A stretch of 64,000 nt of DNA from Pontiella sulfatireligans. Lineage in GTDB: Bacteria; Verrucomicrobiota; Kiritimatiellia; Kiritimatiellales; Pontiellaceae. Position numbers and translations under genes: made by a program. Shown piece by piece: positions 33,489 to 63,714 of the stretch (its first letter is position 1; every line of letters starts with the position of its first letter). The notes below the pieces were generated by a model. It was not told where the DNA came from and did no database searches. It saw nothing but the letters and a program-made list of their open reading frames with translations. The stretch spans positions 1,426,001-1,490,000 of the forward strand of contig NZ_CAAHFH010000001.1 in NCBI RefSeq assembly GCF_900890705.1. The letters are read 5' to 3'.

Positions 33489-34577
33489 TCATTTCAATAC
33501 GACTTTTTTACCGGTCCGGCTGCTTTCCTTTGCCGCTTCCAGAATTTCAACCACCGCCAAATTAATTTCAGGGGATGACAAATCGGTTTTCCCAACCTTT
33601 GTATCCCCCCTGATCGCGGACACAAAAAAAGTAAACGGATCAGAAAAGGGTGCGCTTTCCTTCGGTATAATTTTGGTTTGCTCCGGAACTCTTTTTTCAA
33701 ACCGATACCGAATCGTTTCTTTGTCATCCAGCAACGCATATCCGGTTGTTCCATACAGATGCATATCCTTGCGGCTGAAGGGCCAGTTCCACGAGGCATG
33801 AATCACACCTTCCATGGTCGGATACGATAGAACAATCGTCGCATCATCATCCACCTTGGGATATACGTCGGGCTTATACTGCTTCAAACTGGCGTACACA
33901 CTAACGGGCCGCTCCCCTTTCATCAGCCATGTGATCAGATCCGCGCCATAACACCCGAAATCCGTAACAGCGCCACCGCCGTTAAGAACGGGATCAGTCA
34001 GCCAATCGAGGAACTCTTCATTGACGCGGATTTCCTTCGGCCCCGTATGCCCGTCATAGACAATGATTTTCCGTAAGTCGCCCAGTTCTCCACGCTCAAC
34101 CATTTCGAACCCCGCATGATTCGAGGGATACCAGGAGGTTTCATAATTGGTCAGCAACAGGGTTCCCGCTGCTTTGCTCAGTTCAATCATCTTCGCAGCA
34201 TGTTCAACTGAAACGGCCAGCGGCTTTTCGACCATCACATGAATGCCTCGCGAGGCGCAGGCCTCTACCACCGCCAAATGCTCACAAATCGAAGTATACG
34301 TGACCACCGCCTCGGGCTTCGTCTGATCCAGCATGTCTTCCAGCGAATCAAAGATCAGGCTTTTATCGATTTTGAACTTAGTGGCATATCGCTCTGCAAG
34401 AGCCGCGTCCCGCTCTGCAATTCCGACAATTTTAATATCAGTTCGCTCCTGATCCCTAAGCAAAAGCAAAACATGGGAATGCGACAATCCGGCCACGCCA
34501 ATCTTTACCGGTTCTTTTGAAAAGGAAGTCCCAGCAACAGCAAGAAAACACAATAAAGTTTGACACAGCTTATTCAT
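33489..34577 (-). CDS. Exported Gfo/Idh/MocA-family protein
   Basis: A 362-residue protein with a Sec-type signal peptide (cleavage near T-S-F-S-K) and a Rossmann plus alpha/beta domain. V-E-K-P-L-A carries the family Lys, and G-G-G-A-V-T-D-F-G-C-Y-G-A-D carries the second-domain motif. The dinucleotide loop is degenerate: G-L-S-H-S-H replaces G-x-G-x-x-G. So NAD(P) binding is uncertain, and the exported location is odd for a soluble oxidoreductase. The start overlaps the upstream beta-helix gene stop by 8 bases, indicating coupling. A substrate cannot be assigned. Homologues with the same loop occur in glycan loci of Bacteroidota, to my recollection. Confidence 0.85.
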   Translation of the reverse strand: MNKLCQTLLCFLAVAGTSFSKEPVKIGVAGLSHSHVLLLLRDQERTDIKIVGIAERDAALAERYATKFKIDKSLIFDSLEDMLDQTKPEAVVTYTSICEHLAVVEACASRGIHVMVEKPLAVSVEHAAKMIELSKAAGTLLLTNYETSWYPSNHAGFEMVERGELGDLRKIIVYDGHTGPKEIRVNEEFLDWLTDPVLNGGGAVTDFGCYGADLITWLMKGERPVSVYASLKQYKPDVYPKVDDDATIVLSYPTMEGVIHASWNWPFSRKDMHLYGTTGYALLDDKETIRYRFEKRVPEQTKIIPKESAPFSDPFTFFVSAIRGDTKVGKTDLSSPEINLAVVEILEAAKESSRTGKKVVLK

Positions 34578-36108
34578 ACAATGCCTTCATTAAGGTCTCA
34601 TTCCATGCACGGGCATTCGGCCAGTCGATGCCGCCCGACTGAATGGTTGAACAGGTTTCCTTGAGCAAGTTCAGCCAGCGGCTGTTTCTCCATTCATGCA
34701 AATTCAACGGATCAATATAACCATGCTTCTGAACAAATTCAGGTCGTGCCATCAGATTCCGACGCAGTGTATCTGCATTCGTTTTATTTTCCTGAAGCCA
34801 TTTTTTCCAATGTCTGGATTCCACATCAGTAGGATCACGGCCCAGCATCTCAACAAATGCCATCCTCACCACGGCAAGGACTTCGTCATCCGGATAAGGC
34901 TGATCGCGATACCCCAGCGCATTCCGGGAATCCCTGGGGCTGCGACTTGCGCGCAGCACCGCGGTAAGGCTGTTTGTCATCGGCACGAAATCCGACTGCA
35001 ATTCACTGTTTCCAATGTTCTGCGGATCGTACATGAACGCCATCGGGGCATCGGGCGGCTTGCCCGGAAGTCCGTCCCCTAAACCGGAATAGGTTGCATC
35101 GCTGGTATTGCCTTTAATTTCAAAATTATCGACCCCGCGAACAACATATCCGTATCCGGCGGCTCCGCCACTGATATGATTATTCAGTACCCGCGCGCCC
35201 AGCAACGTGGTGCCGTCAAAGCCGGCATTCCACGGACTTCCACCCATTGGAAACCCCGCATGAATGCGGCCTCCAGCAGCCACAATCAGATTATCCTCAA
35301 CCACAATGCCGCGATAATCATAGGTTCTTTTTTCAGCATCCAGTTCGTAATAGCCAAAGGGATCAATCAGGACAATGCCGCCCAGCATCTCACGGGAGAG
35401 TGCGACAATTACATTATCCTTCACCAACGACCCGGGCGCGCCCTGAAGCATGATTCCATCATCGGTCGCATCAATAATCAGGTTGTTCAGGATTTTAGTA
35501 TCCCGACTTGCCGATGAAATCCCATCGCCCCAACCAAATGGTTTTTCGTAGGGCGATCGTCCATTACCACGAATATCGGCTCCGGCGGAAAATACAACGT
35601 TGTCGCGGATGACAATAGCCGCCCCACCTTCCTGCACATGAATGGCCCCCCAGCCTCCGGCGCAGCGACCATCGATGACAATGCAGTTGCGGATTTCCTG
35701 ACCCACTGCCCCTTCTCCGCCAAACGACAGCATCGGCTCGCCGGTCAGCTTTCCTTCCAAGGATTGGAAACCCGGCCGATTCCCATCCAGAATCAGCTTC
35801 GATAGTGTGGCGCCGGAAATTCCATGCGCGTTAATCAATGCGCCCTGCCCCCCATCAGCCATCACGATTTTTGCATAGTCCGCGGCCGTCTTTGCCCCTA
35901 GGGTCTCTATTCGTTGCCCAGCCTTATGAAATGTCAGACATTCAGTAAGTCTGACCACCTGCCCGGGTTGCAGCTCGATATTTTTTCCGGCATCCAGTTT
36001 CGCCTGCAGAGGGTGTATTTCCCCATATCCATTGCGGGTCAGCAAACTGGAGAACAACAGGACGCATCCCATTACCCCAACCTTCAGTATAGAGTTTATT
36101 ACATACAT
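34570..36108 (-). CDS. Secreted right-handed beta-helix protein (alginate/pectate-lyase-like) with DUF4214-like tail
   Basis: A 512-residue protein. The signal peptide ends near L-T-R-N-G-Y-G. Rungs rich in Asn and Gly (N-C-I-V-I-D, N-N-L-I-I-D, D-N-L-I-V-A) make a parallel beta-helix of the chondroitinase-B/alginate-lyase type (PL6-like). Residues about 415-465 (M-A-F-V-E-M-L-G-R-D-P then W-K-K-W-L-Q-E-N) resemble the DUF4214 repeat. It shares this plan with the gene at 42622. The ATG at 36108 has AAGGGG just before it, and a perfect ATTGTTAACAAT box lies 17 bases upstream. It leads the operon with Gfo/Idh and GH3. Catalysis is unproven. Confidence 0.8.
   Translation of the reverse strand: MYVINSILKVGVMGCVLLFSSLLTRNGYGEIHPLQAKLDAGKNIELQPGQVVRLTECLTFHKAGQRIETLGAKTAADYAKIVMADGGQGALINAHGISGATLSKLILDGNRPGFQSLEGKLTGEPMLSFGGEGAVGQEIRNCIVIDGRCAGGWGAIHVQEGGAAIVIRDNVVFSAGADIRGNGRSPYEKPFGWGDGISSASRDTKILNNLIIDATDDGIMLQGAPGSLVKDNVIVALSREMLGGIVLIDPFGYYELDAEKRTYDYRGIVVEDNLIVAAGGRIHAGFPMGGSPWNAGFDGTTLLGARVLNNHISGGAAGYGYVVRGVDNFEIKGNTSDATYSGLGDGLPGKPPDAPMAFMYDPQNIGNSELQSDFVPMTNSLTAVLRASRSPRDSRNALGYRDQPYPDDEVLAVVRMAFVEMLGRDPTDVESRHWKKWLQENKTNADTLRRNLMARPEFVQKHGYIDPLNLHEWRNSRWLNLLKETCSTIQSGGIDWPNARAWNETLMKALYE
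35755..35769. repeat. TTCCAA-NNN-TTGGAA palindrome inside coding sequence
   Basis: TTCCAAGGATTGGAA, translated as part of F-Q-S-L-E-G in the beta-helix protein. Confidence 0.4.
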
Positions 36109-36124
36109 TCGCCCCTTATTGCAT

Positions 36125-36136
36125 ATTGTTAACAAT
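36125..36136. promoter_or_regulatory. Candidate operator ATTGTTAACAAT upstream of beta-helix/Gfo/GH3 operon
   Basis: A perfect 12-base palindrome 17 bases upstream of the start at 36108. The longer block GCATATTGTTAACAAT (36121-36136) is shared with 44225-44239. Confidence 0.6.
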
Positions 36137-36499: not shown

Positions 36500-39400
36500 A
36501 TGGAAGAACAAGTCGGGCTTGGGCCCAAGCGGTCGTATGGGGTAAAATGTATCTTTCTAAAATTGTGTGTAACATGCTTTATATTTTCCGCCTGCGTTGC
36601 GGGAGCAACCAACCATCCGCCAAATGTTGTATTTATTTATGCGGACGATCTCGGCTATGCGGACATCGGATACAACGCGCCGGCCGGCAGCCTGGCTTAC
36701 ACGCCGAATATTGACCGCATCTGCAATGAAGGCATCTATCTTTCCAACTACCTGACGCATCATGTCTGCACGCCCAGCCGGGCCGGCGTGTTGACCGGTC
36801 GGCATTATACGCGGGTCGGGGCAGGGATTAATGTAAACGGCACACTGGACAACAGCGTTCCGAATATTGCCAAGGATTTCCAGGCGGCGGGTTACGCCAC
36901 GGGCTGTTTTGGAAAATGGCACAGCAGTGATCCCAATGAACCCACCAATGGGAAAAGTCAGGTCGTTAACTATAATGATGTAGCGGTCTACAGCGATGTG
37001 CATCAGATGAATACCGCCCCATTAGATAACGGCCTGTTTGATAAAAGTTTTCCCAGGGCGTGGGGCGAAGGCGTCAATGCCTACGGCTTTGATCGCTATG
37101 TCGGGTTTTACAGCGGTCTGGTCGATTATTTTGATAAATTCATCAATTTTTATCATGACGTTAACTGGTGGCATGACGGAGATTACGTGCCTGATGAACC
37201 GGGCTATCTGACGGATCTGCTTTCACAGCATTCGCTGGCGTTTGTTGAAACCAACCAGGCCAATCCGTTCTTCTGCTACGTTCCTCACGGGTGCGTGCAT
37301 GCGCCCTATGATATTATGCGCTCCGACCTGGAGGAGATGTGCAACATCATCGATGATGAGCATCCCACGCTGGCCTGGACCAACGTCATGATGCTTGCCA
37401 GCCCGTTGACGGGCGCTCTGATCCGGGATGCGGACGAAATGCGCTGCACCCCCGATTTCGAGTTTGATAGAGAAGCGCTGGATGGGCAAATCAATGGGTT
37501 CGCTGATCTGGTTTATTATACCATGATTTATTCGATGGATAAATCAGTCGGTGCCATGCTGGACAAGCTCGACGAGCTGGTCGCGGTAGGGACGGTCGTC
37601 ACCGACCGCCCCCCGCACAGATCCGTACGTGCGACATTAACGCATACGGCTCCTACCTCAAGTAATGGCGTTTTGAGCGGAAAACCTGTATCGAAGCCAT
37701 TTCCTTTTGATGCCCACTACGCAACCTGTAAATTCATTCGATGCGACTATTCGGCTCTGAGTCCTTGCCGCAGCTTCATTCACTGATTTCCTCTTGGTTG
37801 ACTTCCTTTCCTCCATCTGCTCCGCAGAAACCGAAGCCTCCTTGTTCGCAAACTTCTCAGGTACTATGAAGTCATCCGACTTCTCGGGGGAACTCATCGC
37901 TGGTATTCGGCGATTAGCCTTTTCCAGCGATGCCTCTACCAGGTGCTTCAAGCTTGGCGAGCCTCCTTCCCGAGATCTCCCGATTTCCGCGCGGAGAGTG
38001 TCCACACAGGCCAAGGTTCTTTGACTCCGCCAGAGTGGTATGCCACTCGCGATTACGCGGCATTCCATTTCGCGTCCCCTGCAGTCCACTGGGTATGCCA
38101 TCTGGTAACTGGTGATTTCGGAGCTCAATAATTCGGCTTATGCTTTCCCCTGTCAACGCTTCGCCACGTCCTCGCGGATCGTCGACGCATGACTCGGGGC
38201 CATTGTTTCTCGCTAAGATTTCAATGTAAGACTCTTTCATTCTCTACTCTCCGCCGACTTTAATCGGCGCTTTCGGACTGACCACCAACACCATTGTTGT
38301 GTTCAGCAGTGACAATGGCGGAGTAATCGGTCGAGGGGATAATGGCCTGTTCCGAGGGGGGAAAACCCAGGTTTGGGAAGGTGGCATTCATGTGCCCGCG
38401 GCAATCTGGTGGCCGGGTATGTTGGATGCAAATCAAGCGCCTTATAGCTCCGGGGACAATGTTTACAGCAACCTCACGCAATACATCGACTGGTATCCCA
38501 CGCTGATCAATATGACGGGGCAGCCCCTGTACGGCACGGATCTTGACGGAATTAATTTAACCTCGAACCTGTTCAGCCGGACATCGGCCCGGCTGGGTTA
38601 TGAGGGTTGCTATTTCGGTCTTGACGACTATTGGGCATCGACGCGAAATGAGCGTTGGAAGCTACACTTCAACCGGCTGGTCGGCGACGACCATGTGCTG
38701 GAATTGTATGACCTGTGGACCGACATTGGGGAAGCAACAAACGTTGCCTCGGTCTTTACCTCCGAACGTGACGCGTTGATCGCGCGGCAGGATCAGTGGT
38801 TTGGCTCCGGCGATGTTACGGCCAGTTTTATGCCGCTGACCGGTGACAGCCTGCCCCCCTATACAAACCCCGCACCTTTCGGCGATATTCTCGAAATAAC
38901 GGCGACGCAAACGGAATCGATTTCAAATCCGAACAACGGCGTCTCGGTTGGCTTTTCCGACCCCTCCTTCAAATCACTCAATGCATACGATATTCATATT
39001 CAGGCCAGCGACGTGATCGAATATGACCTCTATGTGGCCGCTGATTCCGACCAGGTGAGTGGTTTTTTCTGCTCTCCTTCCCGCAGCTCGAAACCGTTGT
39101 TCAGTACAGAGCGAGGCATCCATTCCTCCGGCAGCATGCTCAATCTCTATTCGATGCCAAAAGGAGAATGGATACGCGTTGCAGCAGGGGTCGGAGATAT
39201 TGCCCCATCGACGGCCAGGCCACAGTACATCGGTCTTTTCAACAGTTCTCCGGGAACCTACCACTTCTACATCGACAATGTCGTCATCCGCAGAAAAGAC
39301 GGAACCATCCGGGCCATGGTCTGGAATAACGGAAATGATTCCGACCCGACTCCGAGCTATTATTATAACCGTGTAAAATATAACACATTAGCCGAGGCGA

Positions 39401-40854
39401 GCGCTGTCGCAGGTTTCCCGTTCAGCGACATCAGCTTAAGCACGACCGACCTCAGCACGCTGGATGTTGTTGATCCGGGCACAGGAACGAATCAAGTGAC
39501 CGTAACCCCGGCGACCGGAATCGGCATCGACTATCCGGTCTGGGCCGACAACGCCACCGACACCACCGGAAATGGATCGAACAATTCAACCGGTAACGCG
39601 CAGGTGGGCGATGTGTTCGGCGATGACAATGTACGCCGATCTATTTTTGCTTTTGATGTTGATGACACCATCACACCCGACAAAATCGAATCCGCTGTGC
39701 TGAAGCTTTACTACCGAGGAGCAAACGCCAATGCAGAGGCAACGGGTGGAGCAGTCTCGCTCTATCACAGCGAAGCCGCGGATGTCTGGAGCGGAAGCCC
39801 GCTCTCTGAGCAGAGGGACTGGTTTAATCTGGGCGGATGGACGAACACTGGACTTAATGTGGTTGCAACGCCTACGGAAGACATCGGATATAAAGAAATA
39901 GACGTTACCGCCGAGATCCTCGCGGATCTGAACAATGATCCCGGCCGTCCAGCCATCGACGGAGGCTCAAACAAAGTGATGTCCCACTTTCTGATTCGCT
40001 GGGACAACGAAGGCACGTTCGACGCGGACCTGACCTTCGACGCGGTTGAAGGTTCCGTTGGGGATCCGATTCTTGAATTAAATTTCAAACCGGTATCTTC
40101 TCCCGCAAGCAGCGAATCAAGCTACACTGAATGGATTACCGGAATCGAAGGTCTGAACGAAATAGATCCTGCCGGAGCCGGGCCAACAAACGCATGGCCA
40201 TTGATTTTGGAATATGGATTAGGAAGTGATCCCGCCACCTACACGGCTGGATTCATGCGGGGCACCAATGCCCCGATGGCGCAGCAGCTTGGAAGCTATG
40301 CGATTCAGGACAACGTTCTGACCATGAGTTTTGATTTCAACCGCAATGCCGGCGATATTGAAGTCGTTGTCAGCGAATCCACGAATCTGATCGACTGGGC
40401 AGATACGCTGGTGCTTCAGCCGCCCTATTCCGATACCGCGCTTCTTTCCACAAACCCGATGGTACTGAGCATTTCCGACAACGCGGCAACCAATGGTTAT
40501 TCCGGCGAAACCACTCGGGTAACCGCCCGAAGCGGAAATGCCGTGGATGATGAACCGAAGGGCTTTCTCAAGCTAGAAGTCAGACCTTCTATCGCGTCGG
40601 CAGCCACCCCGCTCTACCTCAACACCGTATCGCACAACGGCATTCTGCTCGAATGGAGCGGCAGCGAACAGGAGCTGTTTATCATTGAACGAGCGGCGGC
40701 GGGTTCGGGCTCATTTACCCAACTGGCCCAAACCGGTAATTACCAGTATACCGACACCTCGGCAATTGCGGGACAATCCTACAACTATCGCGTGCGCGCC
40801 GTGAATGCCGCCGGTGTCACCGAATGGTCCAATTTGGCGACAGCCATTCGCTAA
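36500..40854 (+). pseudogene. Multidomain secreted sulfatase interrupted by an antisense group II intron remnant
   Basis: Removing 37580-38274 joins codon 360 to a GGA codon and restores one frame of about 1,219 residues. AAGGAG lies 7 bases before the ATG; a signal peptide ends near V-A-G-A. The formylglycine Cys90 sits in C-T-P-S-R. The left piece ends within L-D-K-L-D-E-L and the right resumes L-T-T-N-T-I-V-V-F-S-S-D-N-G, exactly where other sulfatases continue. Beyond the sulfatase domain (about 1-500) there is a long tail: a beta-sandwich, a DNRLRE-like domain (about 780-950) and a fibronectin-III-like C-terminus. As the intron is antisense it cannot splice from this mRNA, so the gene is dead or makes a truncated product with the frame ending at 37786. 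Confidence 0.85.
37580..38274 (-). mobile_element. Group II intron remnant lacking most of its reverse transcriptase
   Basis: On the minus strand the 3' end carries a domain V-like hairpin at 37620-37652 (GAGCCGTATGCG and CGCACGTACGGATC arms) and a domain VI-like stem (37580-37612). The 5' part reads as the familiar intron leader: M-K-E-S-Y at 38240, then G-P-E-S-C and E-A-L-T-G-E. A remnant of the intron-encoded protein N-terminus follows (37896 to about 37752: K-S-D-D-F-I-V-P-E-K-F-A-N-K ending R-T-Q-S-R). The polymerase and maturase domains are gone. The element interrupts the sulfatase without a target duplication and ends in AC, as expected for group II introns. The 5' end (GAAAGCG) departs from the usual GTGYG, so it may be decayed. 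Confidence 0.8.
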
Positions 40855-42621: not shown

Positions 42622-44142
42622 CTATTTATTCCCCAATTCATCAAGTGCTTCTTTGTAAAGTGTAACTGCCGAAGGCATGCCGCCGTTTTTTCGTATCAGT
42701 TTATCACAGATATCAAACCAGAGTTTGACTCGGAAAGGATGCAACTCCTCCGGTTCAACCTCACCAAAATATTTCTTAAACTCTACACCGGTCATCAGCT
42801 GTCTGCGAAGTCCATCGGCATTCAGTTTCCTGGAAGCCAGCAGTTTAATGCCCTCCGCCACTTCCTGTCGATTCGGTGCACGGCCCAACATTTCCAGATA
42901 GGCCGCCTTCACGACCGCAATCCCTTCCGGTTCGCCATAATCATGCATCTGATAGCCGTTCGCATCTTCCGGTGCAAACTGCGTGCGCAGCAAATGTTCA
43001 ATGTGCCGTTTTGCCGGGACAAACTCCGGTTGCAGCGTGCAGTCTATGACGGAGGGCGCGTCGTAAAGAAAGGCGGCGGGATCGTCCGGGGGATTCGGGT
43101 GTTCTCCATATTCTGCCAGGCCGGAATAGGTGGCCTTACTGATGTTGCCGATGATTTTCCAGTCGGTAATCCCGTGCGCCACAATGCCATAGCCTCCGGC
43201 ACCGCCATCGAGAATATTGCCGGTCACTTCCCCGCCCGTCAGAATGTTGCCGCGCCAATGCGGCACCCACACCACGCAACCCACCGGAAGCATCATATGG
43301 ATACGGCCGCCGAAGGCATCGATCATGTTGTTGCGCACTTTCACTCCGCGATAACTGATCAAGGTTTTCTCTTCATTGAGTGCATAGAGCTGATATTTAT
43401 CCACCATGTTTACGCCGCCCATGGATTCGCGGGAAATGGCGGCTACGACATTGTCTTCCACCACCGTTCCGGCCGCGGCATAGAGCACTACGCCAACATC
43501 CGTCGGATCAATAATGAGGTTGTTTCGAATCACTGAATTACTGGATGCACAAGAGATCGCATCCGCCCATGCGAAGGGTTCTTCATTCAGATCGCGGCCA
43601 TTCCCCCGCGGATCAACCCCGGCACCGAGGAACAGATTATTCTCAGCCACCAGTTTTTCGGCGCCCTGCTGCATCTTCAGCGTCGACCAGGTTCGCGTAT
43701 TCATAAAAACGCAATCGCGAACCGCCATGCCGTCGCCACCATGACCGCCAAAACGAACCAGCGCCGGTTGACCCCCGCCGCCGATTTTCGGTTTGGGCAC
43801 CACCGAAATGTGATAGCGGTCCCCATCAAAAACAACCTTCTCAATCAAGCCCCCCTCGCAGGACGCATTGAGAATCATCATTTCCTCCGGGTTGACCAAT
43901 CGCAGGGTGGCGTACTCAGAAGGAAACCGGGCGTTTTTGGTGTAAATCTTCTGACCCGGCTTTTTACAGGTCAGCGTTTGAGTAATTTCATACATCTTCC
44001 CCTTAGCCAGCACCAGGTCATCGCCCCGGTTCAGGACCGCCTGAAGATCATCGCCCGGATTTACCTCACGGGAAAAGGCGGGGTGACACGGCAATAAGAG
44101 GCAACCGAGGCCAACCATGATTAATCGTTTATTTATCAACAT
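42622..44142 (-). CDS. Secreted right-handed beta-helix protein, paralogue of the gene at 34570
   Basis: A 506-residue protein with a signal peptide ending near H-P-A-F-S-R. It has the same plan as the gene at 34570: N-terminal G-D-D-L-Q-A-V-L-N segment, Asn/Gly-rich beta-helix rungs (N-N-L-F-L-G-A-G-V-D-P-R-G-N-G-R, N-N-L-I-I-D-P-T-D) and a DUF4214-like tail (Y-L-E-M-L-G-R-A-P-N). It is probably a polysaccharide lyase or hydrolase of the PL6-like group, but no catalytic set can be fixed. The ATG at 44142 is chosen to give a normal signal peptide; the ribosome site is weak. A 16-base palindrome lies about 85 bases upstream. Confidence 0.8.
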   Translation of the reverse strand: MLINKRLIMVGLGCLLLPCHPAFSREVNPGDDLQAVLNRGDDLVLAKGKMYEITQTLTCKKPGQKIYTKNARFPSEYATLRLVNPEEMMILNASCEGGLIEKVVFDGDRYHISVVPKPKIGGGGQPALVRFGGHGGDGMAVRDCVFMNTRTWSTLKMQQGAEKLVAENNLFLGAGVDPRGNGRDLNEEPFAWADAISCASSNSVIRNNLIIDPTDVGVVLYAAAGTVVEDNVVAAISRESMGGVNMVDKYQLYALNEEKTLISYRGVKVRNNMIDAFGGRIHMMLPVGCVVWVPHWRGNILTGGEVTGNILDGGAGGYGIVAHGITDWKIIGNISKATYSGLAEYGEHPNPPDDPAAFLYDAPSVIDCTLQPEFVPAKRHIEHLLRTQFAPEDANGYQMHDYGEPEGIAVVKAAYLEMLGRAPNRQEVAEGIKLLASRKLNADGLRRQLMTGVEFKKYFGEVEPEELHPFRVKLWFDICDKLIRKNGGMPSAVTLYKEALDELGNK

Positions 44143-44225
44143 ATTCAAATCCCAATCTACCATTACGCGGCGTCTATATGAATGAATCATACCGACATGA
44201 ATCCTTGACTAGAAATCTTTTTTGC

Positions 44226-52097: not shown

Positions 52098-52162
52098 GAA
52101 AGGGTCAGTCCCGTAATCTAGTAATCCAGCCATAATTACGTTATTACGGGACTGATCCTTTC
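52098..52162. repeat. REP-like palindrome type A, copy 1
   Basis: Arms GAAAGGGTCAGTCCCGTAAT and ATTACGGGACTGATCCTTTC (one mismatch) around a 25-base centre. It lies just downstream of the GH29 stop; the second copy is upstream of the same gene, in the same orientation. Confidence 0.7.
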
Positions 52163-62733: not shown

Positions 62734-63714
62734 TTAAAAATTCCCGACAAAGCGCTCTAGGTGCGCGGTCAGGTTCTCTTTACTCGGGTGGTATTTTTCG
62801 CTCTTCGGCAAATTGATTTCCAGGCCTTGGAACTGCTGGATGGAATAAGTGCTGGTGACGGGTTCGGTCATGCGGGTGGAGACGATGACGCGATAGGTAT
62901 CGGGATTGATGGCGATAAGGCCGCGGTCGAAGGCGCGGTGCAGAGTTGGGCAAAGCGCGAGACCATTGGTGATGGTATCGTCGTGCGACTGGCTGAAGGG
63001 GACGATGTGGCATGCGTCGATCAGCGATGCGTTGATGCTGGTTTCAACTTTCAGACCGGAAATGCAGCAGGTGTTATCATAGATCCGCGGCACCTGTTTT
63101 TTAAATACCCCGCCCCGAACGAACACCTCTTCTTCATAGCTGGCCGCATCGAGGGATTCCTGCAGGGATTTTATCTGCGCCTGATATTCAACGGATGATT
63201 CCGCAAGGATCTGATCACTTACCTGATCCCAATAACTCACCCCGTTCGAGAGCGATGCATCCGGGAAATAGGTTTTCAGCAAGGTCTGTCGCAATACCTC
63301 CCGCTCCACGGGCGAGACCATTAAAGCAAATAGCTCCGGATCCAATTCAACATGACTGATGGTTTTTTGAAGCATCCCGATAGTTTTACAACTGCTCGTT
63401 GCCGCGCTCCATCCTTTGAACCCTGGATACTCAACATGATGCCAGAACTTCTCACCTTTTAGATGAAAGAACGGCTGGGCGATCAGCGGCGAGTGCCCCG
63501 TCGTCACCACCTCCTGCCAGATTGATTTAAATGCCCCGACCAGCTCCGGCGTCAGTTCAATGCGGTTCCCCGAAATCCAACCCTCATCCATTCCCCGCAT
63601 TACCGCCAGCAACAGCACTGGCTTATGCGGTGCAGGCCCATACTTAGTCACCCCCTGCCGAAGGTGTGTGAGCTTAGAAAAGGGGTCAGTCCTATGAAAT
63701 GATGTTTTCCGCAT
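62734..63714 (-). CDS. HNH endonuclease with sulfur-binding-type N-terminal domain
   Basis: A protein of about 326 residues. The N-terminal part (K-Y-G-P-A-P-H-K-P-V-L-L-L-A-V, S-P-L-I-A-Q-P-F-F-H-L) resembles the sulfur-binding domain of McrA-type endonucleases that cut phosphorothioated DNA. The C-terminal HNH core reads C-C-I-S-G, then D-A-C-H-I-V-P-F, N-G-L-A-L-C-P-T-L-H-R-A-F-D. The first residues (K-T-S-F-H-R-T-D-P-F) come from a type B REP element, so the original N-terminus was probably replaced. AGGTGGGG lies 3 bases before the ATG. It may be a restriction enzyme, but no DNA-phosphorothioation genes are in view. Confidence 0.82.
   Translation of the reverse strand: MRKTSFHRTDPFSKLTHLRQGVTKYGPAPHKPVLLLAVMRGMDEGWISGNRIELTPELVGAFKSIWQEVVTTGHSPLIAQPFFHLKGEKFWHHVEYPGFKGWSAATSSCKTIGMLQKTISHVELDPELFALMVSPVEREVLRQTLLKTYFPDASLSNGVSYWDQVSDQILAESSVEYQAQIKSLQESLDAASYEEEVFVRGGVFKKQVPRIYDNTCCISGLKVETSINASLIDACHIVPFSQSHDDTITNGLALCPTLHRAFDRGLIAINPDTYRVIVSTRMTEPVTSTYSIQQFQGLEINLPKSEKYHPSKENLTAHLERFVGNF
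63679..63708. repeat. REP-like element type B, copy 3 (inverted)
   Basis: AAGGGGTCAGTCCTATGAAATGATGTTTT, the reverse complement of the type B element with one or two changes. It encodes residues 3-12 of the HNH protein and supplies the stop of the small frame at 63692. Confidence 0.65.

Follow-up and report, generated by a model that had tools for sequence, protein, structure and literature searches.

ORF-less, trans-mobilised group II introns and introns with shifted 5' ends are already known. In the TeI3 introns of Thermosynechococcus elongatus, one deletion of the domain IV ORF has given a compact form, which is present in identical copies, keeps an ORF remnant beside the deletion and was dispersed by the reverse transcriptases (RTs) of related introns; the T. 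elongatus genome codes for several related, potentially active RTs (PMC2882425). C.te.I1 of Clostridium tetani is also ORF-less, is described at a single locus with alternative splicing and has no related RT gene in its genome, and its 5' splice site lies off GUGYG with an altered IBS1-EBS1 pairing (PMC3919590, PMC4424553). According to a 2015 review, it is the one ORF-less intron of bacteria for which no related RT is present (PMC4424553). The GUGYG consensus of the 5' end is usual and not strictly defining, as published exceptions are available (PMC4424553, PMC3919590), and shifted 5' ends are found in C.te.I1 and in fungal rRNA introns (PMC3919590, PMC4424553). Mobile elements are also known to insert into REP elements: insertion sequences lie in Pseudomonas REPs and, of 9 cases of a P. 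putida group II intron, 2 lie in REPs (PMC1525189), beyond which no match to REP-homing group II introns was found in the literature searched.

In our study, the window (the whole 64,000-nucleotide stretch of Pontiella sulfatireligans DNA that was analysed) was found to carry a 695-bp insert with exact coordinates inside a sulfatase gene. The insert is a non-autonomous, ORF-deleted group II intron which spread after loss of its RT, and not a decayed leftover. It is present three times in the genome with 100% identity, the same two ends and unrelated flanks:

37580-38274, minus strand: complete ORF-less group II intron, 695 bp, 5' GAAAG...CUACCGCGAC 3', with three identical copies having the same ends and with orthologous and paralogous empty sites
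C2:1795431-1796125: further intron copy, 695 bp, 100% identical
C2:1778675-1779369: further intron copy, 695 bp, 100% identical

The original prediction of an antisense group II intron with domain V/VI-like hairpins was borne out on the minus strand by the covariance models, with RF02005 (group II intron D1-D4) matching over its full length of 1-225 (38015-38235, 159.7 bits, E 4e-46) and RF00029 (D5/D6) scoring 42.7 bits, above the gathering score (37580-37654). Two RT-bearing relatives were available for comparison. One, at locus L040 of genome G058, encodes a 529-aa group II RT/maturase (TIGR04416) and has the same 5' end as the insert; the other, in the same-genus genome G008, shares both ends and is split over two contigs with a 36-base end overlap, giving about 1980 nt if it is one copy. 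The maturase N-terminus proposed on the minus strand was recovered with the L040 protein (tblastn, 46% aa over q17-92, E 1.7e-9), and the proposed deletion of the RT was also seen, about 1.3 kb of the G008 intron being absent through a deletion in domain IV. A stretch of about 50 nt near domain V (intron 560-610), examined for a C-terminal ORF remnant, aligned poorly. The word "remnant" in the prediction is contradicted by the three identical copies, with domain V, domain VI with its branch A and EBS1 in place. The search for full-length copies elsewhere in the genome, which had been proposed as a check, returned the two further copies, which carry the same RT deletion and are not full-length. 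Since the identical deletion is present at three unrelated sites, it predates the spread and the intron moved after it.

The insertion has broken the sulfatase gene into two parts:

36503-37579, plus strand: 5' part of the broken sulfatase with the CTPSR active-site motif (PF00884 positions 1-226 of 301, 92.8 bits); its frame enters the intron and stops at 37784
38275-40854, plus strand: 3' part with the remaining sulfatase domain (PF00884 positions 236-300) and a long multidomain C-terminus; orthologue L093

As had been predicted, joining 37579 to 38275 restores the frame, giving ...MLDKLDELGLTTNTIVVFSSDNGG... within 1218 aa without an internal stop. Comparison with an uninterrupted orthologue, also suggested beforehand, was made with L093 of the same-genus genome G023, which has 82% aa identity over 739 aa, reads continuously through MLDKLDELG-RTTNTIVVFTSDNGG and aligns at the junction without gap or insert. 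Because the intron is antisense, the ribozyme is absent from the sulfatase transcript, which points to loss of function, and the gene is almost certainly dead. Of the claim that a 1.2-kaa multidomain sulfatase has been lost, the disruption and the antisense intron stand, and the loss of the enzyme is well founded as a reading of the sequence; the same genome also encodes a paralogue with 54% identity, as well as hundreds of sulfatase candidates from a first look. The insertion looks recent, as no other stop is found in either half of the sulfatase. Similar right-handed beta-helix proteins are encoded on either side of the sulfatase region (34573-36135 and 42625-44190, both minus strand), which looks like a repeated gene module.

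The ribozyme looks complete and is presumably competent to splice. Its parts and the pairing partners in the 5' exon are the following:

38281-38284, minus strand: putative IBS2 UGGU, pairing with the putative EBS2
38275-38280, minus strand: IBS1 CAGUCC, located in the 5' exon on the strand antisense to the sulfatase, pairing with EBS1
38252-38269, minus strand: 5'-terminal hairpin CGCCGAU/GUCGGCG with GAAAG before it; also an arm of REP-like palindromes elsewhere
38015-38235, minus strand: ribozyme domains I to the start of IV (RF02005 match; consensus fold of 4 relatives)
38110-38113, minus strand: putative EBS2 ACCA, assigned by inspection, pairing to IBS2
38082-38087, minus strand: EBS1 GGACUG, pairing 6/6 with IBS1 and co-varying with it in L040
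37665-38008, minus strand: what is left of domain IV, including the surviving N-terminal part of the intron-encoded protein, as seen by tblastn with the L040 protein and by nucleotide alignment to the G008 intron
37620-37652, minus strand: domain V (RF00029; 3' ends of relatives)
37583-37618, minus strand: domain VI hairpin with bulged UA, fold -28.2 kcal/mol

In the consensus fold of the four relatives, 15 of the 65 pairs have changes on both sides. Domain V possesses the catalytic triad AGC, whose G faces A (CGGAUC) and not U, likewise in the relatives seen. A group II intron is expected to carry in domain VI a bulged A 7-8 nt from a 3' end in AY; here the predicted branch-point A is 37587, the 8th base counted back from the 3' terminus, which reads ...GAC.

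The 5' end is GAAAG, not GUGYG, in all the copies and relatives listed except one (GAATG, L051). The start was placed at GAAAG on account of the IBS1-EBS1 pairing, the coupled change in L040 and the divergence of the relatives upstream. The pairing is 6/6, with the same domain I loop, in all five introns testable; L040 has a different core (CAGACC/GGUCUG) which pairs 6/6 with itself and 5/6 with other introns, and immediately upstream of GAAAGCGCCGAU the sequences of relatives from many genomes of the class no longer agree with one another. Empty sites also support this boundary. The putative EBS2-IBS2 pairing is 4/4 in the window copy, L004 and L040, and 3/4 in L001, L002 and L039. Judged from these sequences, the GAAAG end is a feature of the whole clade including its RT-bearing members, and a clade with such a 5' end could escape GUGYG-anchored searches. 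Two neighbouring boundaries were considered and rejected. A 5' end 4 nt upstream (GUCCG, nearer to GUGYG) would take GGAC from the sulfatase and shift its frame, and GTCC is present in empty repeat sites; an end 4 nt downstream (GAAA^GCGCC) is ruled out by the sulfatase frame and IBS1.

The 5' exons were found to agree with GGGGTCAGTCC, which forms the core of a REP-like repeat:

Sulfatase, 5' exon: GGTGGTCAGTCC
L001, 5' exon: AAGGGGTCGGTCC
L002, 5' exon: AAAGGGTCGGTCC
L004, 5' exon: CGGGGTCAGTCC

The sequence GGGGTCAGNCCTATGAA has 24 copies in the genome against 0 for the reversed control, and several of these form palindromes; the second type of repeat arm is GGGTCAGTCC-CGTAATCTAGTAATC. On removal of the intron, L001 reads GGGGTCGGTCC^TATAAAATGATG, comparable to the repeat GGGGTCAGTCC-TATGAAATGATG, and L002 reads GGGTCGGTCC^CGTAATCTAGTAATC, comparable to GGGTCAGTCC-CGTAATCTAGTAATC in L072 and at window position 52102. 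The rejoined flanks of both loci are recognisable repeat copies, and both of these further intron copies sit in REP-like repeats. Empty repeats are also present in the window:

63683-63708, plus strand: REP-like repeat without intron, GGGTCAGTCC^TATGAAATGATG, presumed to be a copy of the normal target
52102 (plus), 53658 (minus), 53693 (minus) and 54107 (minus): other REP-like repeat copies, core GGGTCAG[TA]CC

Among the 5' exons of the relatives, GTCA occupies -8 to -5 in 9 of 16. These matches suggest that the intron homes to the REP-like core and that the sulfatase insertion is ectopic, the gene probably being targeted because the strand opposite its codons G-L-T-T has the sequence GGTGGTCAGTCC. 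The 5' hairpin of the intron, GAAAGCGCCGATTAA, also occurs between repeat cores GGGGTCAGTCC in L068 and L072 without the rest of the intron, and as an arm of REP-like palindromes with no intron after it at Candidatus Scalindua L066:1574-1601 and at L069 near 2942-2972. This points to a capture event in one of two directions, with REP-like elements having taken up the intron end or the intron having taken up a REP hairpin. The GC-skew, as a sign of lagging-strand template insertion, was set aside as evidence: four clade copies agree in sign, the skew is weak (-0.03 to -0.09, +0.06) and 1 of 4 RT introns of another class disagrees.

The insert stands close to both described systems and departs from each. 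It shares with TeI3 the single ORF deletion, the remnant beside it and the identical copies, whereas it targets a REP-like core, begins with GAAAG and is in a genome where no closely related RT was found. A cognate RT was sought in its own genome (assembly completeness 94.8%) and none was found, the best being 39% aa; relatives at 61-63% occur only in another species. Since the genome is 94.8% complete, a driver RT may have been missed; it is possibly missing, unassembled or of a more distant type. C.te.I1 is similar in having no related RT gene and a displaced 5' splice site, unlike which three recent copies and a GAAAG clade with RT-bearing members are seen here. In comparison to the mobile elements that insert into REPs, the REP-like core itself appears here to be the base-paired homing sequence.

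Taken together, we consider it probable (about 0.84) that the insert is an ORF-less mobile group II intron which is mobilised in trans, homes to the REP-like core and has knocked out the sulfatase by an ectopic insertion. The RT/maturase of a related intron would have acted in trans on the spliced RNA, and the RNP would have recognised 5'-(G)GGUCAGUCC-3' by EBS1/EBS2 pairing and reverse-spliced the intron directly 3' of it. The antisense strand of the sulfatase codons probably resembles the core by chance, leading to a recent insertion outside the usual sites, from which the antisense intron would be unable to leave the mRNA by splicing. The absence of a cognate host RT, the GAAAG end and the 3/4 EBS2-IBS2 pairing in both repeat copies speak against this explanation. 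The first of these would be expected of an immobile relic, in which a full-length intron had inserted at each place and decayed there to leave a dead window copy; the RT is absent from insert and genome alike, and other clade copies, e.g. L004 and L072, are truncated. Independent decay, however, cannot yield the same deletion with 100% identity over 695 bp at three unrelated sites and is refuted, and the relic as a whole is very unlikely; the decayed-remnant reading was rejected on the same three identical copies.

A REP-associated tyrosine transposase (RAYT, HUH type) could instead have moved the element as ssDNA with the intron as cargo, as in IStrons. The left end, GTCC^GAAAG with its hairpin, resembles the layout of a REP element, the hairpin recurs in intron-free REP-like palindromes (L066, L072), and near the L001 copy only there is a RAYT-like gene, with 46.6 bits to NF047646, below the cut-off of 80. 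Within the 695-bp element no transposase gene was found. This route is highly improbable, because identical ends occur in RT-bearing introns, EBS1 deep within domain I tracks the target and the 3' end is an ordinary domain VI with a branch A. That the insert is an artefact of the assembly, or a coding segment natural to the sulfatase family, can practically be dismissed: no point in support of this was found, the orthologue is without the insert, the stop at 37784 in the sulfatase frame refutes a coding insert, and an artefact is hard to reconcile with an assembly of 5 contigs that shows three copies, each with flanks of its own.

The intron shows that a non-autonomous retroelement has recently spread in a bacterial genome in which no cognate RT was found, a situation seldom met with in the review literature (PMC4424553). 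A safe-haven rule is suggested, namely homing to the genome's own REP-like core, and the sulfatase would be an example of this rule failing in a coding gene. A further-reaching and rather unlikely idea is that the clade has adopted the REP/RAYT system: EBS1/EBS2 would home to the GGGGTCAG REP-like core, GAAAG with its hairpin would be interchangeable with REP hairpin arms, intron ends would turn into REPs and RAYT might act on the intron as well. If true, this would give IStrons a counterpart among group II introns.

The insert has the same D1-D4 architecture as other RF02005 (group-II-D1D4-6) introns, including the GUGCG-starting L006-L009 of the same genome, but these score 93-106 bits against 159.7 bits and differ in 5' end, target and domain V. 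L006-L009 belong to a second group II intron family, consisting of L006, L007, L008 and L009 (G000), L081/L113 of another same-genus genome (G005; 1945 nt, RT-bearing) and partial copies in three more genomes; the loci L114, L115 and L118 are counted in this family. Where readable, the 5' end of this family follows ATGA (ATGA^GTGCGCC), i.e. directly after start codons, and the 3' end carries a Shine-Dalgarno-like stretch and ATGTCTACTCGAC, which in the five complete copies keeps the reading frame of the host gene. The spliced mRNA would start M-K... and the unspliced one M-S-T-R-Q..., the frame being otherwise unchanged; hence the intron would replace the start codon which it interrupts, and both mRNA forms would encode the host protein. 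The sole TCAT in the first 330 nt lies at offset 194-201, the same place in 6 of 6 checked, and UCAU is a putative EBS1 complementary to ATGA. No description of start-codon group II introns was found in the literature searched, and this family may be of more general interest.

Another class, of RF02001 type with a 440-aa RT, is found four times in G000 (C1:863197, C1:3142096, C2:908997 and C2:1454333), the scores of the copies being equal or almost so, and was probably active recently. Moreover, L022 (C2:1622213-1622887), of the RF02005 class, has a 591-aa RT frame whose C-terminus seemingly runs into unrelated sequence, and this frame is possibly frameshifted or chimeric.
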